The notes under the pieces: generated by a model
What the model saw: the letters and a program-made list of their open reading frames with translations, nothing else
What the model was told of the DNA's origin: nothing
The model's database searches: none
In this document: piece by piece, positions 50,290 through 62,894 of the stretch
Position numbering within the stretch: the stretch's first letter is position 1
Layout: the number at the start of each line of letters is the position of its first letter
Source: Palaeococcus pacificus DY20341
GTDB taxonomy: Archaea; Methanobacteriota_B; Thermococci; Thermococcales; Thermococcaceae
Direction: 5' to 3'
Assembly: GCF_000725425.1 (NCBI RefSeq)
Contig: NZ_CP006019.1
Coordinates: 1,054,001-1,118,000, forward strand
DNA: 64,000 nucleotides
Program-made: the position numbers and the translations under genes

Positions 50290-51078
50290 TCATCCCTCAT
50301 ACTCCTTCCGGTATATGCCCACTAGAGTCAATATGAGGCTGATTAGGATTATGCTTAAGAAGAAGAGGGCGCTCATGTTGGGGTCGCCTTTATACGCATC
50401 GAGTCCGGTGTGAAGGCTAAAGCCCTTCTTTAAAAGCACTCCTACTTGATAGCTCAGGTTAAAGCGCTCTGGGTTGTCAAAGAATGGAAGGGAGGGGATT
50501 ATAAATTGGGCTATGAAAACTACTGCAAAGCTCGCGAGTGAAGCGTAGAGCGGCCTCGCCACTATAATGGATAGAAACATTGCAAAAGCTCCTAAGCTCC
50601 CAAGCAGGAGTAGAGTGACTCCCAAAGCAAAGAGAAAGTCGTTGAGAGTTGATGTAAATCCTTCAAAGCCGGATTTATAGAGCAAAACTCCATAAATCTG
50701 CATGGTTAAGTAAGGTATACCGTATAAAACCGCTAGGGCTGTCATCCCGGCGGAGAACTTTCCTATTACAATCTCGCTTTTTCTTATGGGCTTTGTCAAA
50801 AGCAATCTCATTGTCCCCTTATCTATCTCACTCGCTAAGAGGTCGCTCATGAGGATTATAACTATTAGCTGTCCAATTACGCCCATCCAAAAGTTGATCA
50901 TAAACTCGGACATATTTATTTGAAAAGACCTTTCCAACGCTTTAACACCATATTCGGTGATTTCTTCATGCGTAAAGAAGTAAACAACCACAGGGAGGAG
51001 CATTACCGATAGCATAACCTTAAACCGCCTAGATTTTAGGAGCCTAATGATTTCGTTTTGATAGAGTATGGAAATCAT
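50290..51078 (-). CDS. ABC-2 type transporter permease
   Basis: A 262-residue, six-helix permease. The N-terminal part (NEIIRLLKSRRFKVMLSVMLL) and the DKGTMRLLLTKPIRKSEIVIGK block (ABC-2 hallmark: E-x-x-x-GT--LL-TKP--R--) identify ABC-2 family exporters. It starts inside the end of the ATPase gene (ATGA overlap, GAGGTGAGCTC before it), so the two are coupled. Substrate unknown; surface glycan, lipid or peptide export are all possible. Confidence 0.86.
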   Translation of the reverse strand: MISILYQNEIIRLLKSRRFKVMLSVMLLPVVVYFFTHEEITEYGVKALERSFQINMSEFMINFWMGVIGQLIVIILMSDLLASEIDKGTMRLLLTKPIRKSEIVIGKFSAGMTALAVLYGIPYLTMQIYGVLLYKSGFEGFTSTLNDFLFALGVTLLLLGSLGAFAMFLSIIVARPLYASLASFAVVFIAQFIIPSLPFFDNPERFNLSYQVGVLLKKGFSLHTGLDAYKGDPNMSALFFLSIILISLILTLVGIYRKEYEG

Positions 51079-52010
51079 GAGCTCACCTCAATGTTAAACT
51101 TCTCCATCAAAATTCTCTCCAGCGGACTTGTGTGAGGCCTAAAGAGCTTAAGCCTAATTCCTTCTTTAGCCAAATATTTTGGAAACTGCAGGAAAAACTC
51201 ATCCAAAAACTTCAGCTCCACCTTTACGCGAATAATGCCATCTTCCTCCCAAACTTCCCTGATGTAAGGCCTCTCCTTCAAGAACTCGATGATATCAGGA
51301 TTGTGCGATGTTAGGATGTCGTATTCGTCCTCTTCAATTTTTGTGAGTTCTGAAATTTTTCCTTGGGCTATGAGGCGGCCTTGGTTGATTAGTCCTACAT
51401 AGTTGCACATCTTTTCAATTTCGCTCACTATATGCGAGCTTACGAATATCGTTTTGCCTTCTTTTCTGGAGAGCTCTAAAATCCTGCCGATGAGCTCAAT
51501 TCTTCCCAAGGGATCCAAATTAGCAGTCGGCTCATCAAGTATTAGGAGGGAAGGATTTCCAATCAATGCCGCGGCAAAGGATACCCTCTGCTTCTGCCCG
51601 GAGGAGAGCTCTTTAATCTTGTTTAAAGCTAATCTCCCAACACCAACGTACTGCATTAGGTCTTTAGCTTTTTCTCTCGCTTCCTCCTTTTTCAAGCCCG
51701 AGAGTCTTCCTATATAAATCAGGAATTCAAAAATGGTCATGTTCTCATAAGCTATAGGATATTCGGGCATATATCCAACGTTTTTCATTATTTTAACTCT
51801 TTTCTCAGGCATCTTTAAGCCAAAAATCTCTATATCTCCGTAGGTGGGCCTTAAAGCTGCTGTGAGCATCTTTATTGTGGTGGTTTTTCCTGCACCGTTT
51901 GGCCCCAAAAACCCGTAGACCGCTCCTTCAGGCACTTTAAGGTTTAGGTGATACACGATATTCCGCTTTCCAAAAAATTTGGTGAGCTTTCGGGTTTTTA
52001 TTACATACAT
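51075..52010 (-). CDS. ABC transporter ATP-binding protein
   Basis: A 311-residue ABC-2 type exporter ATPase. Walker A GPNGAGKTT (residues about 35-43), signature LSSGQKQRVSFAAAL, Walker B LLILDEPTANLDP, switch His in VSSHIVSEIEK. The C-terminal 80 residues carry the extra domain typical of export ATPases. First in its operon; AGG 5 bases before ATG. It powers the permease downstream. Confidence 0.92.
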   Translation of the reverse strand: MYVIKTRKLTKFFGKRNIVYHLNLKVPEGAVYGFLGPNGAGKTTTIKMLTAALRPTYGDIEIFGLKMPEKRVKIMKNVGYMPEYPIAYENMTIFEFLIYIGRLSGLKKEEAREKAKDLMQYVGVGRLALNKIKELSSGQKQRVSFAAALIGNPSLLILDEPTANLDPLGRIELIGRILELSRKEGKTIFVSSHIVSEIEKMCNYVGLINQGRLIAQGKISELTKIEEDEYDILTSHNPDIIEFLKERPYIREVWEEDGIIRVKVELKFLDEFFLQFPKYLAKEGIRLKLFRPHTSPLERILMEKFNIEVSS

Positions 52011-52316: not shown

Positions 52317-52979
52317 ATGTTATACACCGCTCAAAGGGCAATATACCATAAGAAGCGATTTAAAAAACTGGCAGTCATCACTCTCATACTTTTCATATTA
52401 TTCTTGGTTCACCCTATATTCATGTATTTGGGATTTTTCACGCTAATTTTCACTCTTAGAGAATACAACAGACACATAACTTGGAAAAAAGGCTTTGAAG
52501 GGGAATTTAGAGTTATTGAAGAGTTCAACTATCCTGAAAGCGTTATCCTCTCAGACATTCACTTACCAAATAGGAGGGGCAACATAGACCATGTAATCGT
52601 GAATTCAAAAGGGATATTTGTTCTTGAAACTAAGAACTATTCTGGAGAATATTATGTTAATGGTGATGTTTGGACAATTGGAAGTTCAAAGAAACGCAAA
52701 AGACGAATACGAAGCCCAACAATAGAAGCCAAAAGAGAAGCATCTGCCATATCCTCCCTTCTAAAAAGAGTTCTCAAAAAAGAGTATTATGTCCAGCCTT
52801 TAATAGTGCTTACAGGAGATGCCATAATTTGGGAAAAAACGAAATCTACAGTCCCTATTTTTGAATTAGAAAAGCTTGATGCATATCTTAACCAATTCCC
52901 TAACAGACTTACTAAAGAAGAGGTCTTAAAGATTGTATCTGTACTAGAGAAGTATGCTCAGCATGTAAAGGAAACCTGA
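52317..52979 (+). CDS. NERD-domain nuclease-like membrane protein
   Basis: A 220-residue protein. Two hydrophobic stretches near the N terminus (LAVITLILFILFLVHPIFMYLGFFTLIF, read as two helices) anchor it. Then the NERD domain: GFEGEFRVIEEF, NIDHVIVNSKGIFVLETKNYSGEYY, with Asp and E-x-K (ETKNY) of the PD-(D/E)XK fold. NERD proteins occur in plasmids and defence islands. The start at 52317 is uncertain; a near in-frame ATG is not available and TATA spacing fits a short leader. Confidence 0.8.
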   Translation: MLYTAQRAIYHKKRFKKLAVITLILFILFLVHPIFMYLGFFTLIFTLREYNRHITWKKGFEGEFRVIEEFNYPESVILSDIHLPNRRGNIDHVIVNSKGIFVLETKNYSGEYYVNGDVWTIGSSKKRKRRIRSPTIEAKREASAISSLLKRVLKKEYYVQPLIVLTGDAIIWEKTKSTVPIFELEKLDAYLNQFPNRLTKEEVLKIVSVLEKYAQHVKET

Positions 52980-53444: not shown

Positions 53445-53605
53445 TACTTCCCCCATTTATCATCTCGGCTATTATAAATTCATCCTAGTGACTCAAAGAG
53501 GGGTTCTCATTTGAGGAGTATGCAAGATTGGAAAAGGAAAAAATTGAAGAGGAAATCTTAAGATTTTTAAACTTTTATCAAAAATAATGAAATAGAGTGA
53601 GAAAA

Positions 53606-54811
53606 ATGAACAAGAGAAAAAAACTTGAATGGATACAAATTGAAAATTTTAGAGGAATAAAAAAAGTTAAACTACAAGAATTTGGAGATATAAATGTGTT
53701 TATTGGGAAAAACAATACAGGTAAAAGCACTGTTTTAGAGGCAATCTATTTAAATGTAACTAATGGGCACCTAGATTTACTTGGCAGAATACCATTCGAG
53801 CTTGTGTTTTATAGAAGGGGATTAAATCCTAGAGATATTACAGATACGGAGAAAGCTGATGTTGAGGAATACATGGAATATATACTAAGCTATCTCTTCA
53901 ATAGCCTTAGTAATAAAAACTATATTAGAATACAATCTAATGTTTCACAATATGAGTTAGTATTAAAACAAGGAAGCGAGGTATCCCCCGACTTTATAGA
54001 GGAGTATATTTCTGGATATCAAACTGCAATATCAGTTACTAAAAAAATCCTTGAAGCACTTACCCAAGATCAAGAGTCAAAAGATGAAAAAATTTTGGAA
54101 ATGTTAAATCAACTGGCAGTAGAAGGTTTACATCCCGAATTTGTCTTGATGACCCCTAAAGGTAGGATTGTAATGGCAGTCATAAAATTTAAACATAAAG
54201 GATTCGTAGATTACCAGATTTTCTTAGAACGCAATCCAGAGACAGGACGTGCTAATGCAATTTTAATAGATGAGTATCTAACTAGAGGATATCTTGGTAC
54301 TACAGCCAAGTTCTCAAAATTATTAAAGAGATTGGATAGAATTTTCAAACCTAAACTAGAGTCTGTTAAAGAACTTTTAGCTCAGCAGATTACACTCGAA
54401 ATTCAGAACATTATAGAAACACTATCAGAATTTTATATCATAACAAAAGATGGAAAGGCCATACCTGTAAGTCTTTTAGGAGATGGAACAAAGACCTCTT
54501 TAATATATTTCTATGTATTATCTGGTAAAGGCAATTATATCCTCCTCGAAGAGCCAGAGAATCATCTTCACGCTGGATTAATGAATAAAGTAATTAATAT
54601 GATTCTTGAGGCTTCAAGATATAACCAAATATTCATTACAACACATAGTCTTGAGTTTCTCGAGAAACTACTAGATATGGCAGTCCAAAAGAAAACAGAC
54701 TTAAGGATCTTTAGATTCGAAAAATGGGATAAAGGAATTCCAAAAATTGAATCCTATGATCTTAATGAAGCTAATGCAGCAGTGAACAAAATAGGGGTAG
54801 ACCTAAGATGA
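53606..54811 (+). CDS. OLD-like AAA ATPase (candidate defence protein)
   Basis: A 401-residue ABC/SMC-like ATPase of the AAA_15/AAA_21 type. N-terminal strand WIQIENFRGIKKVKL, Walker A GKNNTGKST (about residues 35-43), signature-like SLLGDGTKTSLIYF, Walker B YILLEEPENHLHAG and the H-motif FITTHSLEFLEKLL are all visible. There is no TOPRIM domain at the C terminus, which ends after the ATPase core; the TOPRIM is in the next gene, overlapping by 4 bases. This matches split OLD-type and PARIS-like two-gene systems. Start at ATG 53606 after GAGTGA. Confidence 0.82.
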   Translation: MNKRKKLEWIQIENFRGIKKVKLQEFGDINVFIGKNNTGKSTVLEAIYLNVTNGHLDLLGRIPFELVFYRRGLNPRDITDTEKADVEEYMEYILSYLFNSLSNKNYIRIQSNVSQYELVLKQGSEVSPDFIEEYISGYQTAISVTKKILEALTQDQESKDEKILEMLNQLAVEGLHPEFVLMTPKGRIVMAVIKFKHKGFVDYQIFLERNPETGRANAILIDEYLTRGYLGTTAKFSKLLKRLDRIFKPKLESVKELLAQQITLEIQNIIETLSEFYIITKDGKAIPVSLLGDGTKTSLIYFYVLSGKGNYILLEEPENHLHAGLMNKVINMILEASRYNQIFITTHSLEFLEKLLDMAVQKKTDLRIFRFEKWDKGIPKIESYDLNEANAAVNKIGVDLR

Positions 54812-55491
54812 TCCTCATTGTATTTGAGGGATTCAATGATTTACAGTTTTTCAAAAGCTTTCTGATTAAAGTAAAGGAATATAACGAGGGCACAAATAGG
54901 AATTCCAACTTAAAAGATCAGTTTAACAAACTTTTTGAAAAGAATCCTGGCGGAACTAGGATAGATATCTTAGAGCATACAAATCCAGAAAAGGTAATTC
55001 TTCTTAGCATTGGAGGAAAACAATATTTCAAAGATGTCGCTGAGGCCTCAAAAGCACTAGTTAAAATTGTGGGAATCTCAAAAATACTCCTAATTGGAGA
55101 TAAAGACGGGGAAGAAGATATTATTACAGCCAAGAATGAAATAATCAAAAAAGAGCTTAATATTCCTGTGGAGGTTATTGTATACAGAGGATGTTTGGAA
55201 GATTTAATATTCAGTGTTGTAGACCTTATCAATCCTCTCATTCCCCAAAGAGATAAAGATGTGTTAAACAAAATATTTCGAATTCTATCTGAAAATTATT
55301 CTAATGAAGAAAACAGCGAAAGTAACCGAGAAATGAGTATTTTTAAAAAACGAAAAACCGGAATCATACATACTATTCTTGGTCCTCGATGTTGGGGTCA
55401 CCTATTTGACGAATTATTTAGCAAATTTTGTGAGGAAGATATTGATAAAATTGAGGAACTAGAAAAGGTAAAAATATTCTTAGAGTTATAA
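54808..55491 (+). CDS. TOPRIM-like nuclease partner (DUF3226/DUF4435-like)
   Basis: A 227-residue protein beginning MILIVFEGFNDLQFF, where the Glu followed by an Asp a few residues on is the first TOPRIM acidic motif. The second is LLIGDKDGEED (D-x-D). VILLSIGGKQYF lies between, and YRGCLEDLIFSVV is like the GxLEDLL seen in DUF3226 proteins. It starts in the ATGA end of the ATPase gene, so the two are made together. TOPRIM partners of OLD-like ATPases cut or nick nucleic acid in several phage-defence systems; this one is unstudied. Confidence 0.75.
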   Translation: MILIVFEGFNDLQFFKSFLIKVKEYNEGTNRNSNLKDQFNKLFEKNPGGTRIDILEHTNPEKVILLSIGGKQYFKDVAEASKALVKIVGISKILLIGDKDGEEDIITAKNEIIKKELNIPVEVIVYRGCLEDLIFSVVDLINPLIPQRDKDVLNKIFRILSENYSNEENSESNREMSIFKKRKTGIIHTILGPRCWGHLFDELFSKFCEEDIDKIEELEKVKIFLEL

Positions 55492-56525: not shown

Positions 56526-58022
56526 TTAAGTTTTTTTGCTGATCTTAAGGCTTTTTCTTTGTTTACTCTTCTTAGACTGGCTATTTTCTATTTTTTCAAT
56601 ATTTTCGAATTTTAGGGCACCGATACTCTTAAGGAATAGTAAATCCTCTTCGATAAATACCATCTTTGGGTATTTATGTTCCCAAAATTCAGAGAACGTG
56701 ATACCTAAAAAATACCCAACTCCAAGTTTGTGATTCCAAGCCAGTAGGGGTTGATTCAAAATCTCAGAAGGCACATTATCTCTCAGCTTTCTCTTCAGGT
56801 TATCAAGGACTAAGTAAAACATTCTGTAAAGATCTTTGCGAGTTAACAGCTTTTCTTCTGGCCAAGAATCTGATACAGATATAATCCACTTCCATGATTT
56901 TCCGTATCTCTTCCAATAAAGAGGTATCACACCCCACCAATACTTTTTCCCTTTTCTTAGATAGAATCTGTGAGCAATCCCACTGCCAATTGATATACCC
57001 AGACGAATTCTGTATCCTCTCTTTTCAAAGTAATATCCAAGAATTGCCACGTGTTTCTGAGGATATGCGTTACTTACCAAAGCTATCTTAAAAGGCCCAT
57101 TTATAACTTTCCCATCTGGCCAACGTTTCACTTTCTTTAGATCCTTGAACTTAAAGGATAGCTCAAGGGGTTGTTTATAATTTAGAACCCATGGCATAAG
57201 TCCCAAAAGAGAGCCACTGTTATCATCCCACAATAAGTGCATAGCCACGACAGAATAAGGGTCACCCGATATAGTAGGCTCATCCTCAAAGAAAAGTATT
57301 ATCCCTCTGTTAAGAGCATGGATTAAGCGGAAAAGACTGTCCTTACGAAACATCCTTTTGTTTACCTTCTGCTCATTAAGAGATGCCCTCGCAAGATCTG
57401 TAACTGTTACACCATCACTTCTTTTGAACTTCCAGTAAAAAATCCAGAGGACATAAATATCTTGCTCAGCATATCTCCTCGACTTCTCTAATATTTCCTC
57501 TTTAGTCCTTGGTGAGCTTACAACAACCTCAACAGCCACCTTTCTTCCACCAGTTTCGAAGTAGAGATCCGGAATTAGTTTGTACTTATTAAAGTCCATA
57601 ATCTCCTCAGCCTCAACCTTAATTCTCTGGATACTCAAACGCTCTTTAAGCCAGAGCTTAAACTCATCATGAAGCTCCTCGGCCCATTCCTCCTTCTCAG
57701 ACCAATAATAGTACTCACAACCATTTTTAGTGGGGACATGAGAAAAATACCATCGACCACTCTTGCTCTTCCTCAGCGAAACTTCCATCTTACAGGCCGG
57801 ACATACAAACCGCTTCTCAACATAAGCTTGGTGCCTTGCCTCATAAGATTCTCCAACCTTCCTCGCAGCTTCGCTCGCAGTTATCCGTTCTCCAGTCTTG
57901 GTGTCAAGGGCTCTCCACATATCTTTCCCCCCAATCAAAAGAGGAGCCCCATAAATGTCCTTCCAAATAGTTACATTTATCGCTCTATCTTTGGCCATCA
58001 GATCATCTAAGCATACCCACAT
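56526..58022 (-). CDS. CoiA-like nuclease with zinc finger
   Basis: A 498-residue protein. Residues about 73-105 form a treble-clef-like zinc site (VCPACKMEV ... YFSHV ... NGCEYY). The nuclease core follows: IPDLYFETGGRKVAVEVVVS, with Asp and E-x-V (PD-(D/E)XK type, as in CoiA), then KSRRYAEQDIYVLWIFYW. The C-terminal half is unknown. CoiA-family proteins act in DNA uptake or mobile elements. A TATA-like sequence lies at about 58021-58030, so the first ATG might be upstream of the mRNA start, and ATG 57998 (MAKDRAINV) is an alternative start. Confidence 0.72.
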   Translation of the reverse strand: MWVCLDDLMAKDRAINVTIWKDIYGAPLLIGGKDMWRALDTKTGERITASEAARKVGESYEARHQAYVEKRFVCPACKMEVSLRKSKSGRWYFSHVPTKNGCEYYYWSEKEEWAEELHDEFKLWLKERLSIQRIKVEAEEIMDFNKYKLIPDLYFETGGRKVAVEVVVSSPRTKEEILEKSRRYAEQDIYVLWIFYWKFKRSDGVTVTDLARASLNEQKVNKRMFRKDSLFRLIHALNRGIILFFEDEPTISGDPYSVVAMHLLWDDNSGSLLGLMPWVLNYKQPLELSFKFKDLKKVKRWPDGKVINGPFKIALVSNAYPQKHVAILGYYFEKRGYRIRLGISIGSGIAHRFYLRKGKKYWWGVIPLYWKRYGKSWKWIISVSDSWPEEKLLTRKDLYRMFYLVLDNLKRKLRDNVPSEILNQPLLAWNHKLGVGYFLGITFSEFWEHKYPKMVFIEEDLLFLKSIGALKFENIEKIENSQSKKSKQRKSLKISKKT

Positions 58023-58066
58023 ATAAAGTTACAAACAATAAAGTTTTAGAATGTCGTGCTTAAATA

Positions 58067-58082
58067 AATTACGATCGTAATT
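58067..58082. promoter_or_regulatory. 16-bp perfect palindrome
   Basis: AATTACGATCGTAATT is a perfect 16-bp palindrome about 45 bases upstream of the CoiA-like gene start. A second, shorter palindrome ATCACGTGAT is at about 58218-58227. They may be regulator sites of the element. Confidence 0.4.
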
Positions 58083-58273
58083 ATTACTCTCATTTTTCGT
58101 GTTGTGATTTTACTCCTCAAATTCAGCTTACCGACACCGTAGATATTCGAGTAATATGATAAGCCCTATAAACAATAACATACTATGTATGACGTAGTGG
58201 ATACATTAACATACGTAATCACGTGATGACAACACAGAGTGAGGAAATTCGTGTGAAAATCATGGTGGTTAGT

Positions 58274-58642
58274 ATGGCCATTTTTAAAACAAAATGGCGA
58301 AAAATAAGAGCCAAAGACAATATCAAACGCCTAAAAGGTATGATGCAAATCCTCGGCGTCCTCTATGAAAAAACAGACGAAGGAGAAGACATCTATATTG
58401 GCAAATATCTTGTGGTCAAACACTATATGGCCGATGGAAATGAATATTTAGAGATTTACGAGAGAACACGCGACAAAAGAGGCGTTAAAGGTCGGAACGA
58501 GTTAGCTCTTATAAGATGGGATCCAATAGAAGACACGTGGGAATACACCAACAAAAACCTAAGCTCTAACTGGCACAACAAATACCGCATCTTATGGGGA
58601 AAAGAAAAGGACTGGATACGAGAGGAATACTTCAAAGTCTAG
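58274..58642 (+). CDS. Hypothetical protein of the mobile region
   Basis: A 122-residue basic protein, mostly strands and short helices (KYLVVKHYMADGNEYLEIYERTRDKR in parts, DTWEYTNKNLSSNW). Start at ATG 58274 because GGTGGTTAGT precedes it; an earlier frame opening at 58223 is possible. Not recognised. It lies just before the integrase. Confidence 0.55.
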   Translation: MAIFKTKWRKIRAKDNIKRLKGMMQILGVLYEKTDEGEDIYIGKYLVVKHYMADGNEYLEIYERTRDKRGVKGRNELALIRWDPIEDTWEYTNKNLSSNWHNKYRILWGKEKDWIREEYFKV

Positions 58643-58699: not shown

Positions 58700-58897
58700 A
58701 TGGCCAAAGTGTCCAAAGTGGCCACTGAAAATAGCGGCTCTCATTCGTCTCAAAATGCTTCAAAACGGCGAAAGACACGCATTCATATTGCCATTGATGA
58801 AGAAGTGGGCGAAGTTCTTGAGAAAGCGTCATTCAACAAGTCCAAACTTATCAATATGCCCCTTAGATGTTTGTTTTTTGGGAGTGTGAGAACATGA
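58700..58897 (+). CDS. N-terminal part of the integrase (RHH-like), frameshifted
   Basis: A 65-codon frame: MAKVSKVATENSG, then KTRIHIAIDEEVGEVLEKASFNKSKLI, a ribbon-helix-helix-like segment, running to a stop at 58895-58897. The following frame (integrase C-terminal part) is shifted by one base at the T6 run 58874-58879, so the two look like pieces of a single SSV-type integrase. Either this is an intact gene with a slip (real or sequencing), or a separate small DNA-binding protein that precedes int. Confidence 0.55.
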   Translation: MAKVSKVATENSGSHSSQNASKRRKTRIHIAIDEEVGEVLEKASFNKSKLINMPLRCLFFGSVRT

Positions 58898-60024
58898 ACT
58901 TCATAGAATCGTTATGGTGGGCCCGCGGGGATTCGAACCCCGGACCTTCGCCGTGTGAGGGCATGAATGGAAAGGAGACGGGTTTATTTAGTCTGAACAG
59001 GGCATATAATGCTCCAAACTTTAATAGCACATTCTCTAGTACATTTGCTTACCAGAGTATAAGAGAGTATAATAGTGACATGTTTAACATAAAGGGTACA
59101 TACAATCTAAACACTGAAACTGTAACCAATACGTTTAATAAACAAAGCTCAAGTTTAACCTCACATTCATTAAGATTGGAGTTTGAAAATGTCATTGCCT
59201 ATGATGAGTTAAGGCTTGATTTTATTACTTGGATTAAAGCCCGCGTTAGTGAGGGTGTTGCTAGAGATTATATTAGTAATTTGGACAGATACGTAAGTGG
59301 GGAGGTTATTTCGGCCCCTGCTGATGTGTTTAGAATAATGAACAAGGCTGAGCGGGGTAAAGACCACTTGGGGAAGGGCCTTAGGAATTTAATTAATTAT
59401 TGCGTCGAGAATGAAATAGTTAGTGAAGAATTTGCGAGGAAATTAAAGAGAGCTATTAAAATCAAACCGAGCGGTGTCGATTTGTATGTTCCGACAAATG
59501 ACGAAGTTAAGGAGTGGCTTAAACGGGCGGATAGGGACGATGTTAGATTGGCGGTTTTATTGGTTGCTTTTAGTGGACTAAGGATTAAAGAAGTCGTTAG
59601 AATCTTGGAAACGTTTGAAAGAAGCCGGTTAAAGTTTGAAACACTTAATGGTGTTGAAATTGCATATTATGAGCTTGGTTGGAGAAGGGGTTCAAAGCAG
59701 GCGAATTATTGTTTTATGCCGGCATGGCTTGGGAGTGAGTTAAAAAGGTTCGACACAAGTTATCACAAAGTACAGTCCTACGCTGTGAAAAGAGGTATTA
59801 AAATGAAGTATTTACGAAAATGGTTCATTAACAAGATGGTTGAGTTCCAAGTCCCAGAAAGTGTAGTTAAGTTCATGGTTGGGCATAGTCAAGGCCGGAA
59901 TATAATGGGCCTTCATTATTTGGATTTATTTAACCAAGCCAAAAGATATTATTCGATGAGTTTAAGTAGATTGCAGGGCTCTGTTGGGCTTGATGGGAGC
60001 TTAGAGCTTACTAAGGCCGGTTAA
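58894..60024 (+). CDS. int: Tyrosine recombinase (SSV-type integrase), C-terminal catalytic part
   Basis: A 376-residue protein. The first residues (MNFIESLWWARGDSNPGPSPCEG) are the reverse reading of a tRNA 3' half, the mark of SSV-type integrases whose att site lies inside int. The catalytic domain follows: SGLRIKEVVRIL (first Arg), KYLRKWFINKM (K-x-x-R), MVGHSQGRN and LHYLDLFNQAKRYY, where Tyr of HYLDL is the likely nucleophile. GGAGTGTGAG before ATG 58894 could also act as a ribosome site. The upstream 65 codons probably belong to the same gene. Confidence 0.85.
   Translation: MNFIESLWWARGDSNPGPSPCEGMNGKETGLFSLNRAYNAPNFNSTFSSTFAYQSIREYNSDMFNIKGTYNLNTETVTNTFNKQSSSLTSHSLRLEFENVIAYDELRLDFITWIKARVSEGVARDYISNLDRYVSGEVISAPADVFRIMNKAERGKDHLGKGLRNLINYCVENEIVSEEFARKLKRAIKIKPSGVDLYVPTNDEVKEWLKRADRDDVRLAVLLVAFSGLRIKEVVRILETFERSRLKFETLNGVEIAYYELGWRRGSKQANYCFMPAWLGSELKRFDTSYHKVQSYAVKRGIKMKYLRKWFINKMVEFQVPESVVKFMVGHSQGRNIMGLHYLDLFNQAKRYYSMSLSRLQGSVGLDGSLELTKAG
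58915..58962 (-). other. Integrase att site: 3' half of tRNA-Val(CAC)
   Basis: On the minus strand the sequence folds as a tRNA 3' half. From anticodon position 29 to CCA: GCC, loop CTCACAC (anticodon CAC), GGCGA, AGGTC, T arm CGGGG TTCGAAT CCCCG, acceptor CGGGCCC, A, CCA. The 5' half (D arm and acceptor partner) is not present, so this is an att core and not a working tRNA. It lies inside the integrase frame and marks the element attachment sequence (attP type). Confidence 0.8.
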
Positions 60025-62048: not shown

Positions 62049-62270
62049 TTTTTGTTGTTTTTCCTTTGTTTAAGTTGCTAAGGGTCGTTATGGGCTTAAA
62101 ACATGATTGGGGCTTTTAGAAGCTGAATTTAATTTTTTAAGTGATTTACGTTTCATAAGATTGACAAGGAATGTCATTGAAGTGGTTAATTGGCTAGTAT
62201 CCTAATTAAACGGGTTATAAAGTCCACAAACATTAAATATTTGAATCTCGAACTTATATTGGTGAAAGTA

Positions 62271-62894
62271 ATGACATATAGAACTGGACAGGTTGTATTA
62301 TGTGGCTTGTTATTACTTTCTGTGATTATGCTACCATGGGCCACAATCACTTCTAGAGCAACAATGGGGCTACTTTCAACAGACATATACACCCATAAAG
62401 TCGTTTATAAGATGAATACCATAGATGGAAGCTGGGGAGAATCGTATTCTTTTACAGAATTGCTGATAAGGCTTTCAAGTACAAAAACTTCAATGAGAGA
62501 TCCAGAAGAACTTTTGATAAGGGGTTTTGTAGTTAATTATGGTGAAAAGATGTTCTATTTAGCTGGTGTCACATCTATATTGGCAATAATTGGAGTAATA
62601 ATGGGATTCATTCGACCATATGAAAAAAGGAAGACGAGGTGGATATTAATCGGAACGGGGTTCTTAGGGCTTTTTGTGAGTTTGTACTATCTCTATGTAT
62701 TCAAAAGTGTGTTAAGTATGATAGGATATGATTATCCACTAGTTGCAGTGATTACAGGAGCACCGTTATCAGGAGTTCTTGGAGGTTCTACTTTGAAAAT
62801 GACCTATGGGTGGTTTTTAGCTTTGATTTCATCGATTTCGTTGATAGTCTACGGAAACAGTTTGAAAGTGGGATACGTCCACAAAAGTTGGTAA
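62271..62894 (+). CDS. Hypothetical four-helix membrane protein
   Basis: A 207-residue membrane protein with four helices: QVVLCGLLLLSVIMLPWATI, YLAGVTSILAIIGVIMGF, WILIGTGFLGLFVSLYYLY and GWFLALISSISLIVYG. A large extracellular loop lies between the first two. Start at ATG 62271 after GGTGAAAGTA. Not recognised; similar four-helix proteins occur in Thermococcales plasmids. Confidence 0.62.
   Translation: MTYRTGQVVLCGLLLLSVIMLPWATITSRATMGLLSTDIYTHKVVYKMNTIDGSWGESYSFTELLIRLSSTKTSMRDPEELLIRGFVVNYGEKMFYLAGVTSILAIIGVIMGFIRPYEKRKTRWILIGTGFLGLFVSLYYLYVFKSVLSMIGYDYPLVAVITGAPLSGVLGGSTLKMTYGWFLALISSISLIVYGNSLKVGYVHKSW

Follow-up and report, generated by a model that had tools for sequence, protein, structure and literature searches.

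An integrase N half joined at a tRNA-Val(CAC) core to the C half of another element in Palaeococcus pacificus: a probable internal junction of two tandem SSV-type elements

The gene of a suicidal integrase is destroyed when the enzyme integrates its element. In the review PMC8371274, the persistence of these enzymes and the exchange of their specificity halves are presented as an open question. The review describes the chimeric suicidal integrase model (Badel et al. 2020), in which N and C halves are exchanged between co-integrated elements; it proposes that the TKV2 and TKV3 chimeras arose by homologous inversion between integrated relatives, and it cites Redder et al. 2009 for tandem integration at one locus. 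The genome of the deep-sea archaeon Palaeococcus pacificus DY20341, a single contig of 1,859,370 bp, was sequenced by Roche 454 pyrosequencing and closed by PCR; no extrachromosomal element was reported for it, and transposases, integrases, virus-related regions and mobile elements were stated to be absent (PMC4574382). As regards integrases and mobile elements this statement is wrong, since it is contradicted by two elements, named here A and B, and by a relic at tRNA-Val(TAC). In this work we analyzed positions 58700-60024 of a 64-kb window (bases 1054001-1118000 of the genome), and we conclude that this feature is very probably the internal junction of two different SSV-type elements that lie in tandem in one tRNA-Val(CAC) gene.

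Read from left to right, the feature comprises the N half of an integrase, the core of tRNA-Val(CAC) and the C half of an integrase, and the frame is shifted between the first two of these (Table 1). A preliminary description of this DNA had regarded it as one unsplit, frameshifted SSV-type integrase in a window without intact tRNA, and had offered free attP DNA, a tandem element or a stranded copy as its possible state; it had also proposed that the genome be searched for tRNA-Val(CAC), copies of the att core and the integrase halves. The 64-kb window indeed holds no tRNA according to ARAGORN, but an intact tRNA-Val(CAC) gene is found 500 bp past its right edge, on the minus strand (genome 1118500-1118577; 64500-64577 in window numbering; L013:6501-6578). 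The core GGTGGGCCCGCGGGGATTCGAACCCCGG recurs there at genome position 1118501, 501 bp past the window's edge, and the whole 51-bp att repeat has an identical copy at genome 1118497-1118547 (64497-64547 in window numbering), which bears out the assignment of the core to tRNA-Val(CAC). A 135-codon open frame reads into the intact tRNA gene and constitutes a second N half, int(N)A, in which the classical WWARGDSNPG segment is translated from the tRNA. Thus the search of the genome yielded the tRNA, the second att copy and a further integrase half, all to the right of the window.

Between the two 51-bp copies, with a core-to-core span of 5,585 bp, lie the catalytic half int(C)A and five genes, the last of which runs past the edge of the window and is followed by int(N)A and then by tRNA-Val(CAC). 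Given the presence of int(N)A and an intact tRNA about 500 bp beyond the edge, the right-hand part of the locus is an ordinary integrated element, A. This element is complete, with int(C) at the left and int(N) at the right in the usual SSV-type layout: the att site lies within the integrase gene, over the 3' part of the tRNA, and the halves are found at both ends. A search of the cargo of element A against PHROGs and Pfam gave no match.

Table 1. Features of the locus, in window positions
Feature	Position	Strand	Remarks
Gene for a CoiA-like nuclease of 498 aa, probably cargo of element B	56526..58022	-	PF06054/PF25164
139-aa gene (58223-58642) and DNA upstream of it, remnant of element B	58059..58642	+	
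int(N)B, N half of pT26-2/TKV type that runs into the core	58700..58962	+	profile match in two consecutive frames
ORF formed by the core and int(C)A	58867..60024	+	catalytic half 58963-60024; PF16795, E 1.9e-41
T6GGG stretch, site of the frameshift	58874..58882	+	one base short vs intact int(N) homologues
att repeat, left end of element A	58912..58962	+	51 bp; reverse complement of the tRNA-Val(CAC) 3' part
Element A gene, 347 aa	60509..61552	+	no family
Element A gene, 153 aa	61587..62048	+	no family
Element A gene, 234 aa, probably a membrane protein	62190..62894	+	
Element A gene, 174 aa	62925..63449	+	78% identity to the gene adjoining the int(N)A-type half in G005
Element A gene, 244 aa	63454..64000, continues to 64188	+	homologue adjoins the int(N)A-type half in G028

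The assignment of the integrase to the SSV type was confirmed by the Pfam match of the catalytic half and by the profile of the int(C)A family, which matches the SSV1 integrase structures 3uxu, 3vcf and 4dks with E values of about 1e-24. Residues R136, K174, R214, H237 and Y248 are invariant across nine C halves and are taken to be the catalytic residues. In a tree of 30 C halves, int(C)A groups with the C halves of G005 (1,738,505 bp; a genome that we take to be P. horikoshii) and G027, with supports of 100/96 and 95/96, and is placed apart from the clade formed by pT26-2, pGE2 and G023 (2,088,737 bp; presumably T. kodakarensis); its identity to the integrases of the two plasmids is about 27%. 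In G005, G027 and G021 the A-type C half at one end of the element is paired with an AbrB-like N half at the opposite end, and int(N)A is of this AbrB-like type, with 57-63% identity to its relatives. From this pairing of types, together with the 78% match of the cargo gene, int(N)A is the N half that belongs to element A. A scan of IMG/VR gave no relative of int(C)A, and for int(N)A it gave matches solely to the tRNA-derived segment; a single scan of genome contigs returned one relative, from a Thermococcus MAG.

Two further observations concern the A-type family. In G044 an A-type C half (C1:1100063) and an A-type N half (1582340) lie on opposite strands 480 kb apart, which suggests that an inversion ran through an integrated element. 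Most A-type elements use tRNA-Val(TAC), and at L068 (G089:C4:99761-100552) an A-type C half stands behind a core of the CAC type, a situation that points to target switching inside the family.

The N half of the feature was compared with a profile made from 15 homologous N halves, from which the window sequence was left out. The 65-codon frame at 58700-58897 matches positions 1-61 of the profile with 91 bits, and the frame at 58867-58962 matches positions 58-88 with 30 bits; given that the matches are consecutive, the two frames represent a single N half that has been broken once. The same profile also matches the integrases of pT26-2 and pGE2, and it is by profile only that int(N)B is linked to them, as a protein-level search of the plasmid collection gave no match for the 65-aa frame or for its intact homologue from G093. 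Homologues of the 65-codon frame are present in 48 of the 94 genomes of the family, and those inspected prove to be N halves whose frame continues into a tRNA core (Thr, Tyr, Val and others). Across int(N)B, the core and the tRNA, the DNA is 75-92% identical to that of G023, G080 and G078, and at tRNA-Val(CAC) of G023 an N half of the int(N)B type and a C half that belongs to the pT26-2 clade are separated by 23 kb. As judged from these comparisons, the stretch 58700-58962 is the pT26-2/TKV-type N half of another element, B, directed to the same tRNA. An N half, an exact core and a C half do therefore stand together, as had been proposed, but they do not make up one unsplit integrase: by the N-half profile and the C-half tree, the two halves are of different integrase types.

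The sequences to the left of int(N)B are also mobile-element DNA, probably cargo of element B. The CoiA-like nuclease gene has a single homologue (55%) among the 94 family genomes, which lies in G040 within the roughly 27 kb that separate an int(N) from an int(C). For the 139-aa gene, a 57% protein match was found in contig 203 of G046, a contig that ends in a pT26-2-type int(N) and that is also matched by the DNA upstream of the gene. A normal int(C) end, which the preliminary description had held against its own reading, is not what was found here, given that the 65-codon frame is an integrase N half and that mobile-element DNA lies next to it. A C half of the B (pT26-2) type is absent from the P. 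pacificus genome; the same search finds the C halves of G001 at 26% identity. The chromosome proper resumes by an ABC-transporter gene (51075-52010); the same gene adjoins tRNA-Val(CAC) in G080 and G078. Two other observations were made in this part of the window: an AAA ATPase gene overlaps a gene for a 227-aa protein (53597-55491), both of them matching the candidate defence pair PDC-M38, and a NERD-domain nuclease gene (52317-52979) is located between the ABC-transporter gene and the island.

The presence of an N half in front of a C half is rare. When both N types were sought within 900 bp upstream of 35 C-half loci, an N half was found directly upstream in three, i.e. the free plasmids pT26-2 and pGE2 and the window, so that among chromosomal C halves the window is the only case (1/33). 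In eight relatives of int(C)A the sequence that precedes the core is non-integrase and carries stop codons, except that at L063 the frame is open, also with no integrase N half. The locus is thus a rare natural example of N/C shuffling in suicidal integrases, of a kind that is already known.

The state that would have preceded the arrival of A can be seen in other genomes. In G080 and G078 an int(N)B scar lies directly against tRNA-Val(CAC), with no A element and with the ABC-transporter gene about 0.9 kb away, and when the flanks of the window are joined without A they align unbroken through the junction with G080, G078 and G023. We propose that element B, of the pT26-2/TKV type, would have integrated first at tRNA-Val(CAC) and would later have lost its C half and its left att copy, so that int(N)B remained next to the tRNA together with part of the cargo of B. 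The 5.6-kb element A, whose N half is unrelated to that of B, would then have integrated at the same att site, its integrase being split in the normal way, so that int(C)A would lie at the left end and int(N)A at the right end, next to the restored tRNA. By this event the int(N)B scar would be displaced to the far end of A. Since int(N)B adjoins the displaced att copy on the side away from A, the order at the left junction is int(N)B-core-int(C)A, and the resulting chimeric gene looks unsplit. Both types of half, both att copies, the intact tRNA and int(N)A are seen directly at the locus, and the scar state is seen directly in the relatives. The order of B before A, which rests on genomes of other genera instead of a close strain (the genus is represented by three species), is a probable one, as are the mode of decay of B and the view that no working integrase is expressed from the junction. 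Since the gene is frameshifted in the assembly, its product could be no more than int(C)A, translated from an internal start. Against the tandem reading, the left att copy of B is missing and a three-core array is not seen: no further core piece of at least 11 nt was found to the left of 58912, and the att copies found are two of the three expected for a tandem.

The surroundings of the two tRNA-Val genes of P. pacificus deserve a separate description. The genes for tRNA-Val(CAC) (C1:1118500-1118577) and tRNA-Val(TAC) (C1:1190659-1190735; L014:10660-10736) have their 5' flanks swapped in comparison with G001 and G023, the flanks in question being an aminotransferase gene and dph5, while each 3' flank keeps its anticodon. 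dph5 adjoins tRNA-Val(CAC) in nine genomes and tRNA-Val(TAC) in P. pacificus, G018 and G029; the aminotransferase gene flanks the CAC gene in P. pacificus and the TAC gene in G001. In P. pacificus 72 kb separate the two oppositely oriented tRNA genes, a layout consistent with an inversion whose breakpoints lie at the 5' ends of these genes. At tRNA-Val(TAC) there is also the relic of a second A-type element (L014:10710-12730, genome about 1190709-1192729); its int(N) end is nearly identical to that of A over about 60 bp, its decayed C half belongs to a different subclade of the A type, and between the two lies a gene whose product has an AbiJ N-terminal domain.

Several other origins of the N half-core-C half arrangement were considered. 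The same order is found in the integrases of the free plasmids pT26-2 and pGE2, and accordingly the feature could be one complete integrase gene, from a free plasmid or from an element inserted elsewhere, that acquired a frameshift and decayed in place. Such a frameshifted attP is very unlikely, because the N and C halves are of different integrase types, because int(N)A, the intact tRNA and an identical att copy lie 5.6 kb away on the same contig, just outside the window, and because the published genome has no extrachromosomal element (PMC4574382). These results also remove the free attP and the stranded copy from the states that had been offered for this DNA, and of those states it is the tandem element that agrees with an int(N)B scar and a complete A at the same tRNA-Val(CAC). 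A chimera produced when integrated elements recombine homologously or undergo inversion with each other, as proposed for TKV2/TKV3 (PMC8371274), has in its favor the relic of a second A-type element at tRNA-Val(TAC) and the exchange of the 5' flanks of the two tRNA-Val genes, which shows that some rearrangement did break the DNA within these genes or close to them. However, the 3' flanks have not moved (the ABC-transporter gene remains with CAC and DUF763 with TAC), so that N(B) and C(A) were not joined by the inversion; moreover, A is complete and has matching att copies, and the scar that precedes A is found in G080 and G078. We regard this origin as very improbable. The exchange of the 5' flanks is evidence of recombination at the site but leaves the chimera itself unexplained. 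The int(N)B remnant could also have been brought by another rearrangement, in a locus that also has a swapped 5' flank.

The nature of the frameshift bears on whether the chimeric gene is open. The frame is broken between the halves, as had been described, but the site is not the T6 run: about 20 homologues stay in one frame across the stretch, the intact ones read TTT GGG GAG, and the T6 run itself (58874-58879) is accounted for by a substitution, the missing base being located within T6GGG. Decay and a length error of 454 sequencing are both possible causes, the latter on account of the method by which the published genome was made. If it were a homopolymer error, the chimeric integrase gene N(B)-core-C(A) would be open on the chromosome; the break amounts to a one-base difference in the length of T6GGG, the sequencing was done with Roche 454 (PMC4574382), and the remainder of both halves is open. 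Nonetheless, element B is otherwise a decayed remnant, in which a real mutation is equally to be expected, and we see the sequencing error as a possible but rather doubtful explanation. An error combined with a chimeric integrase that is open, expressed and formed without homologous recombination has only a small chance of being the case. Of the decay or recoding suggested for the frameshift, decay may still apply. For recoding, i.e. programmed frameshifting that would join the two frames, the T6 run located at the break could be adduced, but the intact homologues all read through unshifted, the in-frame heptamer is G TTT TTT and the canonical slippery pattern, X XXY YYZ, does not occur in the required frame in the window, and half of the gene is the remnant of another element; we consider this explanation extremely unlikely.

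Under the tandem reading that we favor, the locus represents a sequence-level case in which the N half of one integrase type is joined at the att site to the C half of another type, and it suggests a simple route to chimeras without homologous recombination. If the chimeric gene were indeed open and expressed, the predicted integrase could recombine the tRNA-Val att sites and release element A, which would otherwise be locked, and tandem integration would offer a direct way of rebuilding suicidal integrases and shuffling their halves.

In comparison with the systems described so far, the locus shares with SSV1 Int and the SSV-type (type I, suicidal) integrases the PF16795 domain, an intragenic att site that covers the 3' half of a tRNA gene, and the split halves, and with element A the SSV-type suicidal elements gain a new member; the locus differs in that the C half is preceded by the N half of another element in place of plain chromosome. 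The closest relative of A is the 4.1-kb element of G005, with identities of 62% for the C half, 57% for the N half and 78% for the cargo gene, and with the same order; in contrast, that element targets tRNA-Val(TAC), and ordinary sequence with stop codons precedes its C half. The N half in the window is of the type found in the pT26-2/TKV integrases (pT26-2, pGE2 and the G023 element), and with the G023 element it also shares the use of the tRNA-Val(CAC) core; unlike these integrases, int(N)B is left without a C half of its own, and the adjoining int(C)A falls outside the pT26-2 clade. Finally, whereas the Badel model, as presented in PMC8371274, has N and C halves exchanged between co-integrated elements by homologous inversion (TKV2 and TKV3), the junction of P. 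pacificus would have been formed directly at the att site through successive integration.
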